Below are positions 26,764 through 64,000 of a stretch of 64,000 bases of DNA, one piece after another. Numbering within the stretch: position 1 is the first letter of the stretch; each line of letters begins with the position of its first letter. The DNA comes from Staphylococcus schleiferi (GTDB lineage Bacteria; Bacillota; Bacilli; Staphylococcales; Staphylococcaceae), in the NCBI RefSeq assembly GCF_900458895.1, contig NZ_LR962863.1, positions 2,232,001 through 2,296,000 of the forward strand. Direction: 5' to 3'. The translations under genes and the position numbers were made by a program. The notes under the pieces are model-generated. The model did not search any database, had not been told where the DNA came from, and saw only the letters and a list, made by a program, of their open reading frames with translations.

Positions 26764-27202
26764 GGCTGTACACTTTATATGGTGGTTATGTGTCTATAAT
26801 AATTAAGTCACAAACCCTACATTTAAAACGTTGTTTTAACAGATTTAAATACACTGCTATCTCTTGGAATCTTAAAAAAGTAATTCACGATAAACGTTTT
26901 CCGTGTTTGTGTATTCGGTTTGGATTCGTATGATAACAGTGAGGACAAGTCATAGGCTTGTATGAAAGGGTACCAAAGATGACGATAGATTTCTTACCTC
27001 TAATAACTACATCTTCTTCAACTTTAGTGATTTTAATATTATTATCTTTAATTTTTAGTAACTTTAATATATCATTACACATAGGCGCAATATGTCTCCT
27101 TTATTTTTGGTTTAGTCACTTAAAATGATAGAGGCATTTGCGCTATTTTTGTACAAAAAAGCAGGATGACTTATGTCATCCCACCATAAAAAATGAAGAA
27201 TC
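26764..27202 (-). mobile_element. 439-bp internally deleted ISL3-type element with target duplication
   Basis: The element is bounded by an 8-base direct repeat CTTTTTAA (26756-26763 and 27203-27210), the duplication length known for ISL3. Its ends are imperfect 22-base inverted repeats: GGCTGTAC...ATATGGTGG at 26764 and, reading inward from 27202 on the minus strand, GATTCTTC...TATGGTGG. Inside are the transposase 5' part (minus strand) and, after a deletion, the last 45 or so bases of the right end. Full ISL3 elements are about 1.2-1.6 kb. The same ends occur at 45966-46755. Confidence 0.85.
26885..27082 (-). pseudogene. Truncated ISL3-family transposase N-terminus
   Basis: The 65-codon fragment begins MCNDILKLLKIKDNNIKITK and contains the zinc-finger start CPHCYHTNPNRIHKHGKR typical of ISL3-family transposases. 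It ends at TGA, where the copy at 46087 has CGA (Arg). Similarity to that copy continues past the stop for about 25 codons, to the deletion junction at GGTTTGTG/ACTTAATT. It is not functional. Confidence 0.85.
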
Positions 27203-27335
27203 CTTTTTAATATATGAAATTGATTTTCTATACGTCCGTTCTATACATAATTTCGATGGCTGTCATGGCACGCCTTATAATCTAAAGCTTAATTCATTTC
27301 GATAACAATTGATGACGATTTATGCACTTTGATAT

Positions 27336-28154: not shown

Positions 28155-28905
28155 GCTAATCAATGTATTAACAAATGCGATTTATTTATTATATAAATTG
28201 ATTATAACAAGTTTTTTGATGCTTTTACATGATTTACACTTGATAAAATATGAATATATTGTTTCATTTCCTAGCTTACTTATTTGTGCAAGTTTAATAG
28301 AACAAAATTATTATTGTAAGGTTACCTTTGGGTTGAAGCGTTACTAGTGAAATTTCTGTTTCAGTTGGTTTTTAAGAGTCTCATCCATTTGGACAATCTT
28401 GTTCGATATTTAAGAAAAGAGGTCAAGTTCAGTATAATTCACCACTTTGTTTAGTCGAAAAGTTATATCGCAACACCTTCTACTTACGAGAATACTACCA
28501 ACTCCTTTTTGCAGCTGACAAAATCATTTGAAAAGTAATGGGACAAAGTCTATAAAAATTCATTATAAACTTCAACAAGCGGCTTGCGATGGTTTCAATA
28601 TTTATTATATACATAACTTGGATATATGAATTATCAAACTATAGATATTTAGGTCAATGCGCTTCGTTTATAATTTTATTAACACTTTTATATCTAGTAT
28701 ATATTTCATTAGTTTATGTCTGCTTGCACAACGAAATCTATTACTTTTTGCTTTCCGCTAAATAAAATCTTCAACTAAATCTATGGGAATTTTATTATAC
28801 CAATATGAAAATTCATGTGTGCGGAGCCCCCTTTATACATATTCACAATTCTTAACGCTTATAGTAAACCTTATAAATATATGCAGTTTATCCATGCTTT
28901 ATATT
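28155..28905. other. 750-base AT-rich interval without a recognised gene
   Basis: No open frame longer than about 60 codons looks coding on either strand, and I see no RNA gene or clear repeat. Composition is AT-rich like the adjacent ntd cluster, so this may be the left margin of that imported segment. Words such as CTTGTTCGATATTTAAG could be decayed coding sequence, but I cannot support it. Confidence 0.5.
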
Positions 28906-29859
28906 TTATTCACTTACAATTTCATATGAATATATCTTGTTCATTACTTCATTATTATTTTTTGTTAACCGTTCAATCATATGGTTACATATATCTTTAG
29001 CCATATTTTCTATAGGCAAAGATATACTAGGTAATTGGGGGCTGGTGATTTTACATATGTCATGATTGTCTGTGCCTATTAGAAATATCTCATCTCCTAA
29101 TACTTTTTTCACTCCTGCTGAAACGAAATCATTTCCAGTGTATACACCCTGAATATCTTTATACTTTTCTCTAATTTTCATCCCTATTTTGATGCCATCA
29201 TTGATTGTAAATGCCGAAGAAAATAGATAATCTTTTCTAAAAGAGATTTTATTTTTTGAGAGCGCTTTTTTATATCCATCTAATCTCAACTTTTGAGCGC
29301 CATTAAAAGGATTATCAATACATATTGCTATATTTTTTATTCCTTTTTCCAATAAATATTCTGTAGCTGCTTTCGCGATATTATACTCGTCAAAATGAAA
29401 ATTAGATACACTTTTAGTTTGGTTTGTATCATTACAAGAAATAATTAATCCACTCTTAGAATACTCTTCAATGACATCGGCGCTATTTTCTATAGAACAC
29501 AGAACAACTGCATCAATTTCGTTTTTTTCTAACGACATTAGTACTTCTTCTTCTTTGCTCGGTGAGCAAAATGTTTGATGAATAAACGATTTATAACCTT
29601 TTTCATTAAAATTTTTGGTTAATTCATATGATATTTTAGAAAAAAATGGATGATCGATATAAGGAATCGATATGGCTACAGACTTTGTCGTCCTATTTCT
29701 AAAATATATAGCAATATTATTAGGGACGTAATTATTTTCTTTTATATATTGCAATACTCTGTTTCTTTTTTCTTCATTAACGTATGGATGATTATTTAAC
29801 ACTCTAGATACTGTAGATTTTGAGACATTGCACGCTTTTGCCACATCAAAAATATTCAT
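28906..29859 (-). CDS. ntdR: LacI-family regulator, NtdR homologue
   Basis: The 317-residue protein has the N-terminal LacI helix-turn-helix (MNIFDVAKACNVSKSTVSRVLNNHPYV) and a periplasmic-binding-protein-like effector domain (FNGAQKLRLDGYKKAL, GVYTGNDFVSAGVKKVLGDEIFLIGTDNHDIC). Its start is ATG 29859 with GGGGGAA upstream; the longer frame to 29901 crosses the operator and is rejected. It is transcribed divergently from the ntdA-like gene, the arrangement of ntdR-ntdABC in Bacillus subtilis, where NtdR responds to the pathway product. The name is by homology and context. It is AT-rich, with many AGA/ATA codons, unlike the housekeeping neighbours. Confidence 0.8.
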   Translation of the reverse strand: MNIFDVAKACNVSKSTVSRVLNNHPYVNEEKRNRVLQYIKENNYVPNNIAIYFRNRTTKSVAISIPYIDHPFFSKISYELTKNFNEKGYKSFIHQTFCSPSKEEEVLMSLEKNEIDAVVLCSIENSADVIEEYSKSGLIISCNDTNQTKSVSNFHFDEYNIAKAATEYLLEKGIKNIAICIDNPFNGAQKLRLDGYKKALSKNKISFRKDYLFSSAFTINDGIKIGMKIREKYKDIQGVYTGNDFVSAGVKKVLGDEIFLIGTDNHDICKITSPQLPSISLPIENMAKDICNHMIERLTKNNNEVMNKIYSYEIVSE

Positions 29860-29874
29860 CAAATTCCCCCGAAA

Positions 29875-29909
29875 ATTATATTGACATGGGAATGTTCCCA
29901 CAATTTAAT
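29875..29909. promoter_or_regulatory. Back-to-back promoters with LacI-type operator between ntdR and ntdA
   Basis: For the plus strand, TTGACA (29881-29886), a 17-base spacer and TTTAAT (29904-29909) form a near-consensus SigA promoter. The spacer contains TGGGAATGTTCCCA (29887-29900), two perfect six-base arms with a two-base centre, the usual shape of a LacI-family operator. On the minus strand TTGTGG (29903-29898), 17 bases and TATAAT (29880-29875) form a facing promoter through the same operator. The predicted ntdR start site would fall very near its Shine-Dalgarno, so the minus-strand promoter is the less certain of the two. Confidence 0.75.
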
Positions 29910-29940
29910 ATGAGTTTATCACAAATAAGGCGGTGCTTCT

Positions 29941-31183
29941 ATGGATTTAAAATCAAATAGTATTTTTAAATTTCGTAAAAACATTCAAAAATTAAAAAGT
30001 TATAATGAAATTCATGCTAATAAATATCTTTCCAGTAAATTGGTTATTGAAAAACCCAAAAATTTATCTAATAAGCCCATTCAAAAAGTAGAATTTATGC
30101 CGGTAGATCGTTTAATAAAGGAAGATGAGTCAGAAAGAATCATAAAAGCATTAAAAAATTTTTTTGCCAACCGGTAAATATACAAGTGGTAAATACATTT
30201 ATGAATGTGAACAATATCTAGTTGAATATTTATCTATTAACCATGTGATAGCGTTATCAAGCGGAACTTCAGCCTTAACAATCGGATTGATAGCCCTAGG
30301 GGTTAAAAATGGCGACGAAGTTATTCTACCTTCAAATAGTTTTGCTGCCACAGAAAATGCAGTTTTATCAATAGGGGCAATTCCAGTTTATGCTGATGTT
30401 AAAGATGATTTTACTATTTGTCCTAGATCAATTGAAGACCGAATCACTTCAAAAAAAAAAGCTATTCTACCCGTGCATTTATATGGTCGATTTTGTGACA
30501 TGATAAAAATTAAAGAGATTGCAGAAAAATATAACATTAAGGTGATAGAAGATGCTTGTCAAGCAATAGGATTAAATGGTGTAGGTACTTACTCTAATCT
30601 AGCAGTGCTGAGTTTTAATCCATATAAAAATTTAGGGGTTTGTGGGAAAGCTGGCGCTATTATAACAAATGATACTGAATTAGATTATAAATGTAGACTA
30701 ATTAGTTATCATGGATTTGATTTGAAAGAAAAAAATAAGAAACTCATGAACTTTGGATTTAACTCTAAAATTGATAACACACAAGCACTAATAGGCATCA
30801 TTAGAATGGAATATTTAACTTTTAATCAATATAAAAGATTAAAAATTGCAGAAAAATATCACGAAGAATTATCAAATATTGAAAATTTAATCCTACCTGC
30901 ATTAGACAACAAGTCAGTATGGCATCTATATCCTGTCAGAATTGGCAATAATAAGAGAGACTTTGTAAAGTCTGAACTTGAAAGTGTTGGCGTGAAAACT
31001 GAAATATACTATCCATACCTAAGTCATAAACAAATTTCTTATAAAACAAATCTTTCGCTTCCAAACACGGAAAGATTACATAAAGAGTTGTTACGTTTGC
31101 CTTTATATCCTAGTTTGATGGAAGAAGAACAAGATTATGCTATTAATGCAATCAAAAATATACTGGGAGGAGGAGTAAAATGA
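29941..31183 (+). pseudogene. ntdA: NtdA-like PLP aminotransferase, frame broken in a T7 run
   Basis: This is a DegT/DnrJ/EryC1-family aminotransferase matching B. subtilis NtdA (3-oxo-glucose-6-phosphate aminotransferase). The first part (29941-30177, 78 codons) holds the NtdA-type N-terminus ending VDRLIKEDESERIIKALKNF. The second (to 31183) continues LPTGKYTSGKYIYECEQYL. Removing one T from the run at 30159-30165 joins them into a 413-residue protein. The PLP lysine is in SFNPYKNLGVCGKAGA (about residue 229 of the joined protein) and the Asp in VIEDACQAIG. AAGGCGGTG lies 5 bases before the start. A TTG at 30164 could begin the second part but has no ribosome-binding site. The 3' end overlaps ntdB by four bases (ATGA). 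Confidence 0.85.
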
Positions 31184-31992
31184 GCCAAAGTTTAATATTA
31201 CTCGATTTTGACGAAACATATTATAAACATAACACTAATAACAACGATTTATACTACTTAAAAGAAATGGAAGCGTTACTAGAAAAAATATCAAATAAAA
31301 ATAGTGTCATCACAGCGATATTAACAGGAAGCACTATAAATAGTGTCTTGGAAAAAATGAAAAAAGTTGATATGTCATACAAACCAAAACACATTTTCTC
31401 TGACCTAAGTTCCAAAATGTTTACATGGAACAATAATGAATATGTTGAATCAGATGAATATAGAGAAGAAGTATTAACAGAACGTTTTTTATTAGAGGAT
31501 ATATTAGAAATATTAAACACTATTTCATTAAAACATAAAGTTGAATTTATTCCACAAAGAATATTTAGAGAAAACGAAACCCTGTACAATTTTTACTTCT
31601 ATTCTACAGGTAATACAGAATTGGACGTGAAAATCTTAAAGAATCTCATAGATTATTCTAAAACAAAAAATTATATGCCCAAATTTAATCGTTGTAACCC
31701 GTTAGCCGGGGATCCTGAGAATGCCTATGATGTGGATTTTACTCCTAAAAATGCCGGCAAGTTATATGCGACAAAGTTTTTAATGAAAAAATATAACATT
31801 TCAAAAAAGTCAATTATTGGATTTGGTGATAGTGGCAATGATGAAGAGTTTCTTAGCTACTTAAAGCATGCGTTTATTATGTCTAACAGCAAGGATGAAG
31901 AAATAAAGAAAAAGTTTCCAAATACAAAATATCCTTATTACAAAGGGATATATAAACATGTCAGTGAATTCATAGGAGGGAAATATGATTAA
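31180..31992 (+). CDS. ntdB: NtdB-like HAD phosphatase (kanosamine-6-phosphate phosphatase)
   Basis: The 270-residue Cof-type HAD enzyme has motif [10 protein letters not shown] (Asp at about residue 9), motif II LTGST near 50, motif III Lys in [14 protein letters not shown] near 190 and motif [13 protein letters not shown] near 213. The large C2-type cap lies between motifs II and III. In B. subtilis NtdB dephosphorylates kanosamine-6-phosphate. Length (282 in B. subtilis) and position between ntdA and ntdC fit. Start and stop overlap the neighbours by 4 and 8 bases, so translation is coupled. Confidence 0.85.
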
Positions 31993-33031
31993 ATACGGAA
32001 TTATTGGCACGGGGGGTATTGCGAAAGTACACGCTGAAATTATAAATAACCTCTCAGGTGTATGCCTTTATGGAGCTCACGATATAGTTGATTCAAACTT
32101 AGAAAAATTCTGCTTAGATTTTAATACAACTGCTTATAGGGACATCCACGATATGTTATCAAAAGTAGATACTGTTATAATATGTTCCCCTAATTTTTGT
32201 CATGTAGATCACATAGTTAAATCGTTAGATTATAGCTGTGATGTATTATGTGAAAAACCCTTAACAGTTAACCTTACTGAATCAAATATAATTAGATCTT
32301 ACAACAACAAGACAAATAATATAAAAAGTATAAATCTAAACTATAGAAATCTGGCGGTTATTAAAAAAATTATCACATTAATAGAAAATGATAAAATTGG
32401 TGAAATAATATCTATTCATATGTCATTTTTAAAAAATAGTGCTTATCGAAGAAAAAACTTTACTTGGAGAGATGATGGTACTTCAAAATTAAGTAGTGGG
32501 GCTTTAGGTGATTTAGGGGTACATCTTCTTGACTTGGCTACTTATATTACAAATAGTCAAGTGAAGGTAGAAACAATTAAAACTAAAATGATGACCAAAG
32601 TAAAACATAAAAGCAATAACCTGGTTCAAGTTGATGACCATTCAGAGACGTTCTTTATAACTAATCACGGTCAACACATTCATATAGAGACTTCAAAAGC
32701 ATGTGAAAAGGAATTATGCGGATTCCATATTAATATATCAGGATATAATGGCGAAATAAAGTTTTCATCTAAAAAGGGCGGGGTAATTATTGTAAGCAAT
32801 AATAATGTTCAAGAAATCATTCCATTAGAAGATAGGATATACATTGACCCTGAAAATGAGTTTTACGGGTGGAAAGATAGTTTTTACTACACACATTTAA
32901 ATCTATTAGAAGCTATCAAGAATAAAAAAGAAACTTCTATTTCAACTTTCGAGGATGGTTTGAGAGCACAAGAAGTTTTAGAACATTGTATTAATAGTCA
33001 TAAACAAAAGCAATACATTAAACAAAAATGA
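31985..33031 (+). CDS. ntdC: NtdC-like Gfo/Idh/MocA dehydrogenase
   Basis: The 348-residue NAD-dependent dehydrogenase has the Rossmann start [16 protein letters not shown], the CEKPLTVN motif near residue 92 and a substrate-side [17 protein letters not shown] segment near 170 with the catalytic Asp/His pair of this family. B. subtilis NtdC (350 residues) oxidises glucose-6-phosphate at C3, the first step to kanosamine. GGAGGG lies in the end of ntdB before its ATG, and the frames overlap by 8 bases; its own stop overlaps the transporter start by 4. Confidence 0.87.
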
Positions 33032-34155
33032 CTAAAAATCACATCCTCTATTTTTCTTTAATGTATTTTCTTATTGGCTTGATACACACTTTTGTCGGTT
33101 CATTTAATCAATACTTAAAAATAGAATTTAATATGAATCAATCAGATGTGTCAAATTTAATAAGTATTCAGTTCACGACATTTATGATCGGAGTATTTTA
33201 CTCTATTTTATCATTTAGTAAAAGTATAAAAAATACGCTTAAAGTAATTCATTTGTTAATTTTAATAATCGTTACTGCCTTTGTTTTTTTCGAAAATTTC
33301 TTACTTCTTTACTTTCTCATAGCTATACTTGGATTTTGTGCTGGTTTAATAGAATCATCTATAGCATCATATATATTTAACAATAAATTCAATTCTGCTA
33401 AAGTCTTTGGATATATTGAATCATTCTTTGCTATAGGGGCACTATTGCTTCCTATTATTGTATGGTTGTTCGAGTCATACTCAAATACAAAATTCTCAGT
33501 TCTCTTTATACTTATAGTAAATATTTTTTCGCTTTGGATAGTAAGTTCACTGACATTCGAAATAGATAATAAGAAGAAAAGTAACCTCACTAATGTCTTT
33601 ACTAATAAAAAGTTTATGATAATTATAATTATCTTGATATGGTGCTTCTTTTATATTAGTATAGAAACTAATTTTTCAAATTTACTGCCATATATGAATT
33701 TAGTTTCTGATAATTTAAGTTATATCACTGTCAGTATATTTTGGTTTGGAATAATTATAGGGAGATTACTGTATGCTATTATATTGTCAAAAATAAAAAT
33801 AAGATTAGAGAGTCTACTATTATTATATACAATCATCTCACTACTTTTATACATTATATTAATATATTCAGATACAGCAGATTTGTTTAAGTTAATATTA
33901 TTATTTTTACTAACATTATTCTTTGCACCAATGTTCCCGTTAGGCGCTAGTATAATCAATAGATTTAGTAGTAATAAAAATTTGTTAACTAGTATTTTCA
34001 TTGCTGTAGCCGGTATTGGAGGAGCAATTGGTGCTACAATTATTAGAACAGCTTTAACTTTAAATATCCCTGCACATGTAACTATTTTGTCGATATTATT
34101 AATTTGTTTATTCTTAAGTATTATTATAACAAAAATTACTAGAATTAATGTTTAA
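33028..34155 (+). CDS. MFS sugar transporter, GlcP-like, last gene of the ntd cluster
   Basis: The 375-residue protein has about 12 hydrophobic helices. The segment SIETNFSNLLPYMN...YITVSIFWFGIIIGRLLY resembles B. subtilis GlcP, the hexose:H+ symporter encoded just after ntdC. That shared order supports homology of the whole locus. It might import glucose for the pathway, or export the amino-sugar product; sequence alone does not decide. The ATGA overlap with ntdC indicates coupling. No clear intrinsic terminator follows before the IS remnants. Confidence 0.82.
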   Translation: MTKNHILYFSLMYFLIGLIHTFVGSFNQYLKIEFNMNQSDVSNLISIQFTTFMIGVFYSILSFSKSIKNTLKVIHLLILIIVTAFVFFENFLLLYFLIAILGFCAGLIESSIASYIFNNKFNSAKVFGYIESFFAIGALLLPIIVWLFESYSNTKFSVLFILIVNIFSLWIVSSLTFEIDNKKKSNLTNVFTNKKFMIIIIILIWCFFYISIETNFSNLLPYMNLVSDNLSYITVSIFWFGIIIGRLLYAIILSKIKIRLESLLLLYTIISLLLYIILIYSDTADLFKLILLFLLTLFFAPMFPLGASIINRFSSNKNLLTSIFIAVAGIGGAIGATIIRTALTLNIPAHVTILSILLICLFLSIIITKITRINV

Positions 34156-34296: not shown

Positions 34297-34574
34297 TTAT
34301 TTTGTTGCGTATTTCTTCTTAAATGCAATGGGACTCATATAATTTAACGTTGAATGTGCGATTTTAGAATTGTAAAAAGTAAGGATATATTCCACAATGC
34401 TAAACATCGCTTCATTCCTAGTTTTATAGTTCTGATGATGTATCAATTCCTTTTTTGATGATACTATGAAAAAGATTCTATACATGCGTTGTCGTAACAG
34501 TTTCCTTTACGACTCATACTGCTCTAAATCCCTTTTTCACGTAGTAAATTTTGATACTCTATTGAGGCATATCG
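34297..34574 (-). pseudogene. Decayed IS3-family (IS150-type) transposase C-terminus
   Basis: On the minus strand the remnant reads RYASIEYQNLLREKGFRA, then in another frame MSRKGNCYDNACIESF, then SIIKKELIHHQNYKTRNEA and IVEYILTFYNSKIAHSTLNYMSPIAFKKKY. This is the rve C-terminal half of an IS150-type OrfB, including the catalytic-Glu region (ESF). At least two small indels (near 34525 and 34470) break the frame, and the 5' half is missing. It is not functional. Confidence 0.8.
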
Positions 34575-34589
34575 ATATCAAAAGTCGAT

Positions 34590-34894
34590 TCTTAAAGAAC
34601 GAAATAGTTATTCTAAAACGGATCATGATGCCACGTTTATGAGAATGAAAGACGATCAAAGGTGACATATTCAACACACAAAACTGGCCATATGCGGAAA
34701 TTAACGATGAGTTTATTTGTCCCAATCATAAACGTCTAGGATTTAAAAGGTATGCTTATCGACATGACCGTTATGGATTTAAAAGAGATTTTAAATTATA
34801 TGAATGTGATGACTGTTCAGCTTGTCCACTTCGAAATCAGTGTATGAAATCTAATTCAAAAGTAAATAAAAAAATCATGAGAAATTATACTTAA
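34590..34894 (+). pseudogene. Decayed IS1182-type transposase fragments
   Basis: Two plus-strand pieces are readable: LKERNSYSKTDHDATFMRMKDD, followed by a stop, and later CPNHKRLGFKRYAYRHDRYG then YECDDCSACPLRNQCMKS, ending at TAA 34892-34894. The DATFM.MK motif and the cysteine cluster CxxCxxCPLRxxC are typical of IS1182-family transposases. The pieces are separated by a large internal deletion compared with an intact gene. Confidence 0.78.
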
Positions 34895-34927: not shown

Positions 34928-35612
34928 TTATTCAGACTTATTATCGAAATTACGTCCCTCGAGTCCTGCAAGTTCTTCTTTCGTTGCTGCTGGTGCTTTC
35001 ATTTCAAAAATTTGATCGACAACTGTGTAATCATAGTAACCTAGACGCGCAATAGGACGGATAGACTTAATATCTAACTTTCCATTATCCATAATGACAT
35101 TATCATCAATATGTACTTGCGCTACACGACCAATAACAATATCTACCGCCGAAACAGGGTCGCCAGTTGGAATGCGAATTGTTTGGACATACTCACATTC
35201 AAAATGCACGGGTGACTCTTTGACACGGTAACCCGGCGCTTCGATACATGCTTCTTTTGTCACACCTGCAAATTCAAAACTCATCTTCCTCGGGTGGTAA
35301 CGCTTTAGACGACAAGTTTACAGCTTCTCGCAATTCATATGTTGCCATGTTCCACACAAACCAACCTGTCTCTTCAGCGTTTTTCACCGTATCTTTACGC
35401 TCATGATTTCCTAATACTGATTGATTCGCCGCAAACATCACCATTGGTGGATCCCACGTTAAATTTTGGTACTGGCTATAAGGCGCTAAATTGTCTTTCC
35501 CATCTTTTGAAACCGTTGAAATACAACCAATCGGACGTGGTACCGTACTACTTTTAAATGGATCATGAGGTAAACCATGACTTCTAATCCCTTGTTTTGG
35601 TGAATACTCCAT
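34928..35612 (-). pseudogene. Flavin reductase-like protein, frameshifted
   Basis: Two overlapping frames together give one flavin-reductase-like FMN-binding protein of about 227 residues. The N-terminal part (to 35274) has TVPRPIGCISTVSKDGKDNLAPYSQYQNL and ends PPEEDEF; the C-terminal part (from 35284) continues EFAGVTKEACIEAPGYRV. Between them GAGTTTTGAA carries four T; three would restore the frame (DEFEFAG). Only this single +1 change separates it from an intact gene. Role: probable cytoplasmic flavin reductase or DIM6/NTAB-type protein. It marks the right edge of the variable region. Confidence 0.8.
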
Positions 35613-49727: not shown

Positions 49728-50917
49728 TTAAATGACTTCTAATTCTTTACCCACACGTTCATACACTGCTAATGCTTCATCTAACATTTCTTTTGTGTGT
49801 GCAGCTGTTGGCATATTACGTACACGTCCTGTACCACGTGGCACAGTTGGGAATACGATAGACTTAACATAAATGCCTTCATCCATTAAACGTTTACTAA
49901 ATTGTTGTGTTTTCTTTTCGTCTCCAATAATTACAGGCGTAATCGGTGTTTCAGATTTGCCTGTATTAAATCCTAAACGGTTAAGACCTTCTTTTAAGTA
50001 ATGCGCATTGTCCCATAGGCGATCATGAAGTTCAGTGGATGCCATTAATTTATTGACCGCTTCAGTAATAGCTTTTGTATCCCCAGGTGCCAATGAAGTA
50101 GAGAATAAGAACGGACGTGATTGTACTTTCAACCAGTCAATTAATTTTTGTGAGCCCGCAACATAGGCCACCCACAACACCAATTGCTTTAGATAATGTT
50201 CCGATTTGGAAATCAACTTTGTCTTTGTAAGCCGAAATGTTTAACTGTACCTGCACCTTTACCCATCACACCTGAACCGTGTGCATCATCCACGTAAACC
50301 ATGATACCGTATTCTTCACAAATTTCGACAATTTCAGGTAATTTAGCAACATCACCATCCATACTGAAAACACCGTCAGTAATGTACATCACTTTATTGT
50401 ATTGTCCAGATTCTACAGCTTCTTTTGCTTTTTGACGTAAATCATCCATATCTGAATGGTTAACACGAATAATTTTCGCTTTTGATAAACGGCAGCCATC
50501 AATAATTGAGGCATGGTTTAATTCATCAGAAAGAATAGCATCGTTTTTATTCATAACCGCTGAAATCGCAGCCATATTACAATTGAAACCTGATTGGTAA
50601 GCAATTGCCGCTTCTGTACCTTTAAATTTCGCCAAAGTCGCTTCAAGTTCATCATGTAAATCTAATGTACCATTAATAGTACGTACTGCCCCTGCACCTA
50701 CACCATGAGAATCAATGGCACTTTTAGCTGCCTTTTTCAAATCTTCGTTTGTTGCTAAGCCTAAATAGTTATTTGAAGAAAGGTTAATGTATTTTTTGCC
50801 ATTAATTTTAATTTCAGGACCGTTTGCACCTTCAATTGTATCAATTTCATTATAAAGACCATTATCTTTTAAATAACTAATATTTTCTTCAAGAAAGTCA
50901 TTTAACTTTTGTACCAT
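49728..50917 (-). pseudogene. kbl: Glycine C-acetyltransferase (KBL), two frameshifts
   Basis: Read with two single-base corrections this is a 395-residue 2-amino-3-ketobutyrate CoA ligase, the usual staphylococcal length. The first part runs from [13 protein letters not shown] to HFGLQ; an extra A in CAAAGAC (near 50220 on the plus strand) throws the frame. An extra C in GGTGGCCTATG (near 50170) moves it again, after which [23 protein letters not shown] continues. The PLP lysine of [12 protein letters not shown] lies between the two errors, so neither piece alone could work. See the pattern of +1 gains elsewhere in the window, which suggests sequence error. Confidence 0.85.
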
Positions 50918-51026
50918 GGTTAAGTTCCCCTTTCAATTTTCATACACTTTAATCATAACGTATTTTGTACAAACTTAAAAGCAAGTGTATAATAAATGAA
51001 ATAACTGCGAGTAAGGAGGGAGCATC

Positions 51027-52194
51027 GTGACTGATCGGTTCCAATTGGCTTATGAAAAAGAACAGGATATGATTGAAACACGCCGTTACCTTCATCAATA
51101 TCCCGAATTGTCTTTTCAAGAAAAACATACCCATGATTATATTGTAGAGCGTCTCCAAAAATTAAACTTTCAAATTGATGCGCATGTAGGACAAAACGGT
51201 ATATTAGCGCGTATATCAGGCGAAGAGCCCGGTCCTACAATTGCTTTGCGTGCTGATTTCGATGCACTACCTATCGAAGATTTAAAAGACGTCCCTTATC
51301 GTTCTAAAGTACCAGGTGTTATGCATGCCTGTGGTCATGATGGCCATACGTCTATATTATTAACCGTTGCGGAACTATTACACGCGCATCAATCGGAGTT
51401 AAAAGGAACGGTCGTTCTGATATTTCAATATGGCGAGGAATTAACACCGGGCGGCGCTCAAGAAATGATTGCAGACAATGCATTAATGGGCGTCGATAAA
51501 ATCTATGGTAACCATTTGTGGACAGGCTACCCTACCGGCACGATTCATACACGACCCCGGGCCTATGATGGCACAGCCAGATGAATTTCATATTACGCTC
51601 TTTGGTAAAGGTGGTCATGGCGCGAAACCTCATGAAACCATCGACCCCATCGTTATTTTGGCAGAATTCATTTTAAGTGCTCAAAAAATCGTCTCAAGAA
51701 CGATAGACCCCGTCAAACAAGCAGTACTCTCTTTCGGTAAGATTGAAGCAGGAAACGCCGATAGCGTTATTCCTGATACGGCCACTTGCCAAGGCACTGT
51801 TCGAACTTTTGATTCTGAAGTTCAAACACACATCTATCATAAAATGGATAAGCTGCTTCAAGGACTCGCATTAGCAAACGATATCACTTATTCATTTGAT
51901 TATATTAAAGGTTATTTACCTGTCTATAATCATGAAGCATCAGCAGAAACCGTTAAAAAGGCAGCCAATGCATTGAACTTTCGATACCATGACTCTGATC
52001 TCATGATGGTTGGAGAAGATTTCTCTTTTTATTTAAAAGCCAGACCCGGTGCTTTTTTCTTTACGGGTTGCGGTAACCCACAAAAAGAAACCGATTGGCC
52101 CCATCATAGTCCACACTTTGATATTGATGAAAGTGCGATGAAGTACGCCGTAAGTACATTCATGAAAATATTAGAACTTGAAGGCAACTTTTAG
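51027..52194 (+). pseudogene. M20-family amidohydrolase, frameshifted
   Basis: The two overlapping frames form one 388-residue M20D peptidase/N-acyl-amino-acid amidohydrolase. Metal ligands are visible in MHACGHDGHTS (near 102), YGEELTPGGAQ (near 140) and NHLWTGYPTG. The frame breaks after THTRP-type residues because CCCC GGG has four C; three would give RPGPMMAQPDEFHITLFGKGGHGAKPH. The start is GTG 51027 with AAGGAGG upstream. It is divergent from kbl. In S. aureus the same family sits beside kbl. Confidence 0.85.
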
Positions 52195-62229: not shown

Positions 62230-64000
62230 TTAGTCGATAATGACTTGCTCTTCAAGGCCTTGTTGTGGCGCTTCATCTTTTTCAATATCAACTTTACTGT
62301 AGCGTTTCATACCCGTACCTGCAGGAATTAATTTACCAATGATAACATTTTCTTTAAGTCCGAGTAAGTCATCACGTTTACCTTTAATCGCAGCATCTGT
62401 AAGAACACGTGTTGTTTCTTGGAAGGATGCCGCTGACAAGAAGCTTTCTGTTTCAAGAGAAGCTTTTGTAATACCTAATAAGACTGGTTTCGCAGTCGCA
62501 GGACGCTTACGTTCTTTAAAGGCTTCGCGGTTCGCATCTGTAAAGTTATGGATATCAACAAGTGATCCTGGTAATAATTTCGTGTCACCCGCTTCAATGA
62601 TACGAACTTTACGTAACATTTGACGTACCATGACCTCAACGTGTTTATCGTCGATTTCTACACCTTGCATACGATAAACTTTTTGAACTTCTTTAAGCAA
62701 GTATTCTTCTGTCGCTGTTAAACCAGCAACTGCAAGGAAGTTTTTCGGCTCAATTGAACCTTCCGTTAATACTTCACCACGTTCTACGGATTGGCCAATT
62801 TCTACTTTCAAGCGTGATGTACCAGAGGCAAGATATGAGCGTGTTTCGTTCGCACCTTTAACAACGATTTCTTGTTGTCTATCTTTGCCAACTGTGATGT
62901 TATCAATCACACCTTCAATTTCAGTAATAACGGCTTGACCTTTAGGATTACGCGCTTCGAAAATCTCTTGGATACGTGGTAAACCTTGTGTAATATCACT
63001 ACCAGCAACCCCGCCTGTGTGGAATGTACGCATTGTTAATTGTGTACCAGGTTCACCGATAGATTGTGCAGCGATTGTACCTACTGCTTCACCAACTTCG
63101 ACTTTTTCACCTGTTGCCAAGTTTTTACCATAACATTTTTCACAGACACCATGTCTTGTGTTACATGTAAATGCAGAGCGGATATACATTTCTTCAATAC
63201 CAGCATCCGTAATTTCTTTAGCGATTTCTGGTGTAATTAATTCGTCTGGACGAATGATAATTTTATCTGTCTCAGGATGACGTACAGTTTCTTTTGAATA
63301 ACGACCTTCGATACGTTCAATAAATGGTTCGATCATTTCAGTACCTTCTTTAATATCTGAAACGAGTAAGCCACGGTCTGTACCACAGTCTTCTTCACGA
63401 ACAATGACATCTTGTGCAACGTCAACAAGACGACGTGTCAAGTAACCAGAGTCAGCAGTTTTCAGTGCTGTATCGGCAAGACCTTTACGCGCACCGTGAG
63501 TAGAGATAAAGTACTCTAATACCGTTAAACCTTCACGGAATGATGAAGTGATTGGAAGTTCGATGATTTTACCAGATGGTGCGGCCATTAAACCACGCAT
63601 ACCTGCAAGTTGCGTAAAGTTAGATGCGTTACCACGGGCACCTGAGTCACTCATCATGAAGATTGGGTTCGTTTTATCAAGTGATTTCATCAATTTAGCT
63701 TGGATTTTATCTTTTGCATTTGTCCAAATTTCAATAACCGCATTATAACGTTCTTCTTCTGTTAATAAACCACGGTTGAATTGTTTTTGAACGCGCTCAA
63801 CTAATTTTTCTGATTCATCCAAGATTTCTTGTTTATCTGGTAATACAACAATGTCTGCTACACCTACTGTAATACCTGCTTTTGATGAATACTTAAATCC
63901 TAAGTCTTTCATCAAGTCAAGCATCATAGACGTATCTGTAATGCTAAAGCGATTGAACACTTCTGCGATAATATTACCCAAGAATTTTTTGTTGAATGGT
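62230..64000 (-). CDS. rpoC: RNA polymerase beta' subunit, C-terminal part (cut by window edge)
   Basis: The frame is open to the right window edge: codons before 63981 read [18 protein letters not shown], so the apparent start at 63981 is only an internal TTG. Visible are [23 protein letters not shown] (bridge helix region), [21 protein letters not shown] (second zinc site), [16 protein letters not shown] (trigger loop) and the C-terminal lid. About 590 C-terminal residues of roughly 1200 are included. Confidence 0.98.

Follow-up and report, generated by a model that had tools for sequence, protein, structure and literature searches.

We examined whether five genes at positions 28906-34155 of a Staphylococcus schleiferi sequence form an ntd-type cluster for the synthesis of the amino sugar kanosamine, how such a cluster would be controlled, and whether a break in one of its genes, ntdA, is a true mutation. 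The window, i.e., the whole 64,000-nucleotide stretch that was analysed, covers positions 2232001-2296000 of a 2.52-Mb single-contig genome. Our answer, held with good confidence though well short of certainty, is that this is an ntd-type kanosamine biosynthesis cluster that was acquired horizontally and would be controlled by NtdR, the ntdA break being most likely an assembly error. The most interesting new point is a conserved promoter geometry between ntdR and ntdA, a 19-base-pair (bp) spacer with a dyad inside it.

The regulator gene, ntdR (28906-29859, reverse strand), encodes a LacI-family protein of 317 amino acids from an ATG at 29859, with Pfam matches to LacI and Peripla_BP_1; its listed open reading frame begins upstream, at a GTG at 29901. 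Divergent from it, on the forward strand, lie the homologues of NtdA, NtdB and NtdC and a transporter gene. The first piece of ntdA (29941-30177, 78 amino acids, stop-terminated) has no Pfam match alone, and the second (30164-31183, 339 amino acids, in a different frame) is a DegT/DnrJ/EryC1 aminotransferase (Pfam, 1.1e-96). Then follow ntdB (31180-31992), coding for a HAD-IIB phosphatase of 270 amino acids in which GDSGND is present; ntdC (31985-33031), for a Gfo/Idh/MocA dehydrogenase of 348 amino acids by Pfam, with the EKP, TWRD and GDLG-H stretches present; and, at the glcP position, the gene for an MFS transporter of 375 amino acids (33028-34155; Pfam MFS_1). Successive frames overlap by 4 bases (31180-31183), 8 bases (31985-31992) and 4 bases (33028-33031). 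A sequence-only reading of the window had claimed this content, order and divergent regulator, with frame overlaps of 4-8 bases; the open reading frames and Pfam matches agree with it on these points, and the NtdA landmark strings it cited are found in the window. It treated the aminotransferase as one gene frame, which is not so; the split in ntdA went unmentioned there. A scan of genome contigs gave 46 loci, one from S. intermedius and 45 non-staphylococcal. All five genes occur in this arrangement in 25 of the 45 (Bacillus, Paenibacillus, Virgibacillus and Geomicrobium; hereafter Bacillus-type loci), so that the arrangement is beyond chance; 20 of the 45 are without it.

Family membership was assessed from solved structures and from a tree. 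The C-terminal piece of the window NtdA scored 368 bits against B. subtilis NtdA (4k2b, 4.8e-109) and 376 bits against 7kz3, its best PDB match, which we take to be KabA, compared with 211 bits against the next aminotransferase. The tree held 75 rows, with the window copy represented by this piece only; 26 DegT proteins from viral contigs (the first 26 of the best 80) served as outgroup, and three loci were left out (L062 and L063, one distant and one partial, and L018, which repeats L016). The window NtdA was placed in an Ntd clade of 49 rows (support 100/99), within its Bacillota part (30 rows, 99/97), and the 26 viral-contig proteins fell outside the clade. This agrees with the earlier assignment to ntd, for which a position outside the NtdA clade had been named as the refuting result. 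The five staphylococcal NtdA proteins form one clade (100/100), for which a sister position of Geomicrobium is weakly supported (90/47); the tree is to be read with caution, since long branches meet in it, those of the proteobacterial group and the viral rows among them, and the composition of several rows is odd. A generic nucleotide-sugar aminotransferase is ruled out by the tree and the PDB scores, and none of the matching NCBIfam aminotransferase models (PseC, ArnB-type and others) reached its cut-off. NtdB had NtdB (3gyg) as its best PDB match at 2e-37, the next being at 6.4e-05, and the rows compared retain the motifs of both NtdB and NtdC. The MFS protein gave no solved PDB relative at an expect value (E) of 1 or less; it occupies the same place as glcP and is 26-33% identical to the fifth gene product of the 25 Bacillus-type loci.

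The same five genes, order, divergent regulator, promoter layout and NtdA clade are shared with the Bacillus ntdR-ntdABC-glcP system for kanosamine and 3,3'-neotrehalosadiamine, from which the window differs in its operator sequence and its split ntdA. Identity to the 25 Bacillus-type loci is 46-52% for NtdA, 30-33% for NtdB and 35-40% for NtdC, and 33-41% for NtdR to the divergent regulator; the window NtdR is 79-82% identical to NtdR of four other staphylococci. The window NtdB lacks an N-terminal extension that the compared Bacillus-type rows possess. By homology the three reactions would also be those of kabABC from Bacillus cereus UW85, as given in the available part of PMC8788734. On the pattern of the characterised NtdABC and KabABC enzymes treated there, the predicted chemistry starts from glucose-6-phosphate: oxidation at C3 by NtdC would give a 3-oxo sugar, NtdA would transaminate this with glutamate as donor, and NtdB would remove the phosphate to yield kanosamine, by analogy the probable product; the MFS protein may carry sugar or product across the membrane. 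Sets resembling ntdABC also occur in actinomycetes and proteobacteria, including on E. coli plasmids, with an NtdA homologue and mostly with NtdB and NtdC homologues. The 20 loci that are not Bacillus-type and the E. coli plasmid differ in having no divergent NtdR and no MFS match; NtdA identity is 37-46% in 18 of the 20, with one distant at 27% and one matching over 75 amino acids only. On one E. coli plasmid the distant NtdA-NtdB-NtdC set (L017:7782-10850) has genes for colicins V and M nearby.

Evidence on the origin of the cluster was drawn from composition, distribution and comparison with relatives. The cluster has a guanine plus cytosine (GC) content of 28.5% against 36.4% for the rest of the window, and only 2 of 918 overlapping windows of the same size in 464 kb were as low, bearing out the AT-richness claimed earlier. 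It is AT-richer than its surroundings also in G015, G070 and G045, which are other staphylococcal genomes, and in B. spizizenii, where the ntd operon (L019:6784-12240) stands at 34.5% GC against 45.2% around it, as if acquired there too. NtdA was detected at E<=1e-60 in 5 of the 84 examined species of the genus, the window's own included, and a class-wide draw of 398 genomes gave 6 at E<=1e-90, of which three were staphylococci and the remaining three belonged to a single other genus. The closest relative, G016, shows 94-97% DNA identity in aligned stretches and has no ntdA match; between the shared flanks the 6.6 kb of the window are replaced in G016 by about 360 bases. A clean excision footprint was not found in this comparison, in which the roughly 360 G016 bases did not align. 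For ntdR, ntdA, ntdB and ntdC the DNA identity was 94-96% between G045 and G037 and 90-93% between G015 and G037, compared with 82-83% for thiD and 75-80% for hxl, taken over the best-matching stretches of these two housekeeping regions among the same three genomes. Cluster genes at 90-96% against the two housekeeping regions at 75-83% therefore point to transfer between staphylococcal species, and indicate that the cluster moves among them. Patchy distribution, absence from G016, discordant identities and low GC thus support the horizontal acquisition proposed by the sequence-only reading.

Its further claim, of flanking insertion sequence (IS) remnants, held for the right flank, where rve_2 (34297-34485, reverse strand; Pfam 8.7e-09) and DDE_Tnp_1_6 (34685-34891, forward strand; Pfam 2.7e-09) are transposase remnants repeated elsewhere in the genome at 97% and 98% identity; the left flank (28284-28905) has no second copy in the genome. 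Farther left, about 400 bases at 26808-27208 have two further genomic copies of 99% identity and are probably an IS end; the protein start there (MCNDILK...) resembles one beside the G070 cluster (L014:6067-6372). The hxl genes directly flank the cluster in the window and lie about 9 kb from the G015 cluster (L013:8638-13903), and the G045 and G070 clusters are far from them; the insertion sites thus differ, with a possible preferred neighbourhood. Carriage of the staphylococcal version by plasmid or phage was considered and rejected: tblastn with the C-terminal NtdA piece matched 60 plasmid records (E limit 1e-60; from Escherichia, Salmonella, Klebsiella, Rahnella and Erwinia) and 6 phage records (E limit 1e-40), every one of them below 60% identity. 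Among viral contigs, the best 80 of 238 confirmed relatives were at most 39% identical.

The two frames of ntdA join at an A/T tract (30153-30165), with a stop after the first 78 codons; in the four other staphylococci ntdA is uninterrupted, at 412 or 416 amino acids. To judge the assembly, 464 kb of the window genome was compared in both directions with 420 kb of a related genome, G022. Frames of G022 with a match in the window genome numbered 295, with a full-length partner for 238, a split partner for 12, and 45 left unscored (low identity or partial); in the reverse comparison, also with 295 matched frames, 258 were full length, none was split and 37 were unscored. The 12 split partners represent 11 distinct genes, two of the 12 being on opposite strands of one place. 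Ten of the 12 were compared with NCBIfam, and among them are rpoC (RNA polymerase beta'), IspF, lipoteichoic acid synthase and a Clp-type ATPase. The rpoC gene, 98% identical to that of G022, lies at about 2294233-2297851 of the genome and starts at window position 62230; its split into two frames falls just past the window's right edge. Because a living cell with truncated rpoC is not credible, frequent indel (frame) errors in the assembly must be assumed, at roughly 4% of scored genes, and one break among five cluster genes is therefore unsurprising. The flavin reductase gene adjoining downstream (34928-35612) is likewise in two frames, 35612-35274 and 35284-34928; it is uninterrupted in G016 (228 amino acids), and its split is probably another assembly error. 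Adjacent genes of a BioF/Kbl-type acyltransferase and an amidohydrolase (49731-52191) are both split relative to G022.

We then compared the ntdR/ntdA gaps of 30 loci, 25 Bacillus-type and 5 staphylococcal (15 distinct sequences in 7 groups). In the window the ntdA promoter and putative operator (29881-29911, forward strand) consist of TTGACA (29881-29886), a 19-bp spacer bearing a dyad (29887-29900), and TAATAT (29906-29911). The layout TTG-N22-TAnnAT, in which exactly 19 bp separate the -35 element (TTG) from TAnnAT, was present in 30/30 of these divergent gaps, although the rows are related and their effective number is nearer 7; TAnnAT at spacings of 14-18 or 20-23 bp occurred in 0/30. In nine B. 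pumilus-group rows naive score-based anchoring fell elsewhere, and the alignment gives 19 bp. The dyad, at spacer positions 1-14, is TGGGAATGTTCCCA in all five staphylococci and TGGGATTGTTCCCA in Geomicrobium, and is imperfect with a CG centre in the other rows; pairing is 6/6 in staphylococci and 3.2-5.0 of 6 elsewhere (group means). Each of the five carriers has the exact staphylococcal dyad once, always in the ntdR/ntdA gap; of the other 79 genomes none has it, and a reversed-dyad control gave 0 matches. In the recognition region of NtdR, staphylococci and Geomicrobium also have SKSTVSR in common, which sets them apart from the other rows shown. The case for a promoter is made from conservation alone, because a consensus scan gave no excess over shuffles (promoter-like, 38 vs 44.7; terminator-like, 2 vs 1.8).

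A 19-bp spacer with an internal operator is the arrangement of MerR-type promoters. The likeness, in mechanism only, is of an over-long spacer enclosing an operator-like dyad in all 30 gaps, and by this analogy NtdR would control the operon from the dyad, probably as its activator. We propose tentatively, and at less than even confidence, that staphylococci exchange a mobile kanosamine module that serves them as a weapon in competition, and that NtdR is a dedicated LacI-family activator which binds the dyad in the over-long spacer and realigns -35 and -10 in MerR-like fashion, the geometry being unchanged from Bacillus and Paenibacillus to Staphylococcus though the operator sequence has changed. 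Our literature search found no paper on a LacI-family activator with a 19-bp spacer and a MerR-like mode. Most LacI-family proteins are repressors, and NtdR might be an ordinary one, its spacer operator blocking RNA polymerase and the functional -10 lying at normal spacing; indeed the window TTTAAT at 17 bp matches TATAAT at 5/6 positions, compared with 4/6 for TAATAT at 19 bp. We regard this as a real possibility, one that falls short of probable, as the position of TAnnAT across the gaps speaks against it, as does the mean match to TATAAT over all gaps, 4.37 at 19 bp compared with 3.27 at 17 bp; further, PMC5730154 lists NtdR of B. subtilis as an activator, with ntdABC-glcP as its target.

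Several observations weigh against a working kanosamine cluster. In the given sequence ntdA is not one open frame, and of the five staphylococcal copies just two, those of G015 and G070, have all five frames open. In the PDB, NtdC matched only generic oxidoreductases (best 5.7e-16), NtdB and NtdC are just 30-40% identical to the Bacillus-type enzymes, and the low dN/dS (ratio of nonsynonymous to synonymous substitution) between the window and other staphylococci, 0.07-0.14 for ntdR, ntdA, ntdB and ntdC and 0.19 for the MFS gene, is rough, with dS at 0.9-1.8 and near saturation. The cluster could thus be decaying, with a real mutation at the A/T tract and no kanosamine made by this strain: the break is present in the sequence, in G045 both ntdR and ntdC are shortened and the MFS gene is fragmented, and the G037 copy breaks in ntdR beside unknown bases, its contig ending inside ntdC. 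We consider such decay unlikely. An assembly artefact is the most likely source of the ntdA break, and likelier than decay because the same assembly splits 11 other conserved genes, rpoC among them, where the reverse comparison found none; the neighbouring flavin reductase is split as well, and the remaining four cluster genes are open. For the ntdA piece dN/dS is 0.09-0.14, the same as among relatives whose copies are intact (0.08-0.12), although a very recent break would leave no trace. The ntd assignment of the sequence-only reading accordingly stands; its suggestion that this strain could make an antimicrobial amino sugar requires that the split be an assembly error, as is likely, or be bypassed. 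An alternative product, i.e., another 3-amino sugar or a precursor of a larger molecule in place of free kanosamine, would suit the fact that NtdB and NtdC share moderate identity with their Bacillus-type counterparts, and the distant NtdABC set on the E. coli plasmid adjoins a SemiSWEET transporter and a flavin adenine dinucleotide-dependent oxidoreductase. This appears quite improbable to us: neither a glycosyltransferase nor a nucleotidyltransferase was present among the cluster genes by open reading frames and Pfam, the phosphatase argues for a free sugar, and regulator, order and promoter layout are the same as in Bacillus. In favour of the kanosamine reading stand the NtdA clade and PDB scores, the NtdB match, the kept motifs, the recurrence of the five genes, the conserved promoter layout with its dyad, the low if rough dN/dS and the intact ntdA of four relatives; in the intact carriers the cluster is probably functional.

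The ntd family itself is already known. For staphylococci no report of a kanosamine cluster was found in the literature searched (mostly titles and the starts of abstracts), and in the available part of PMC6325168 the mention of kanosamine concerns B. cereus. The split ntdA is a caution that a single-contig, 99.98%-complete assembly can mimic a pseudogene. For the family, the conserved 19-bp spacer would offer a concrete explanation for activation by a LacI-family protein, and it fits the report in PMC3536979 of a mutation in RNA polymerase by which the dormant pathway of Bacillus is awakened. Kanosamine is described in the part of PMC9272926 available to us as antifungal, acting through uptake, phosphorylation and inhibition of glucosamine-6-phosphate synthase. 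If the intact copies work, then in a genus for which the literature searched held no report of such a small diffusible product, some staphylococci, perhaps S. intermedius, could make an amino-sugar antibiotic.

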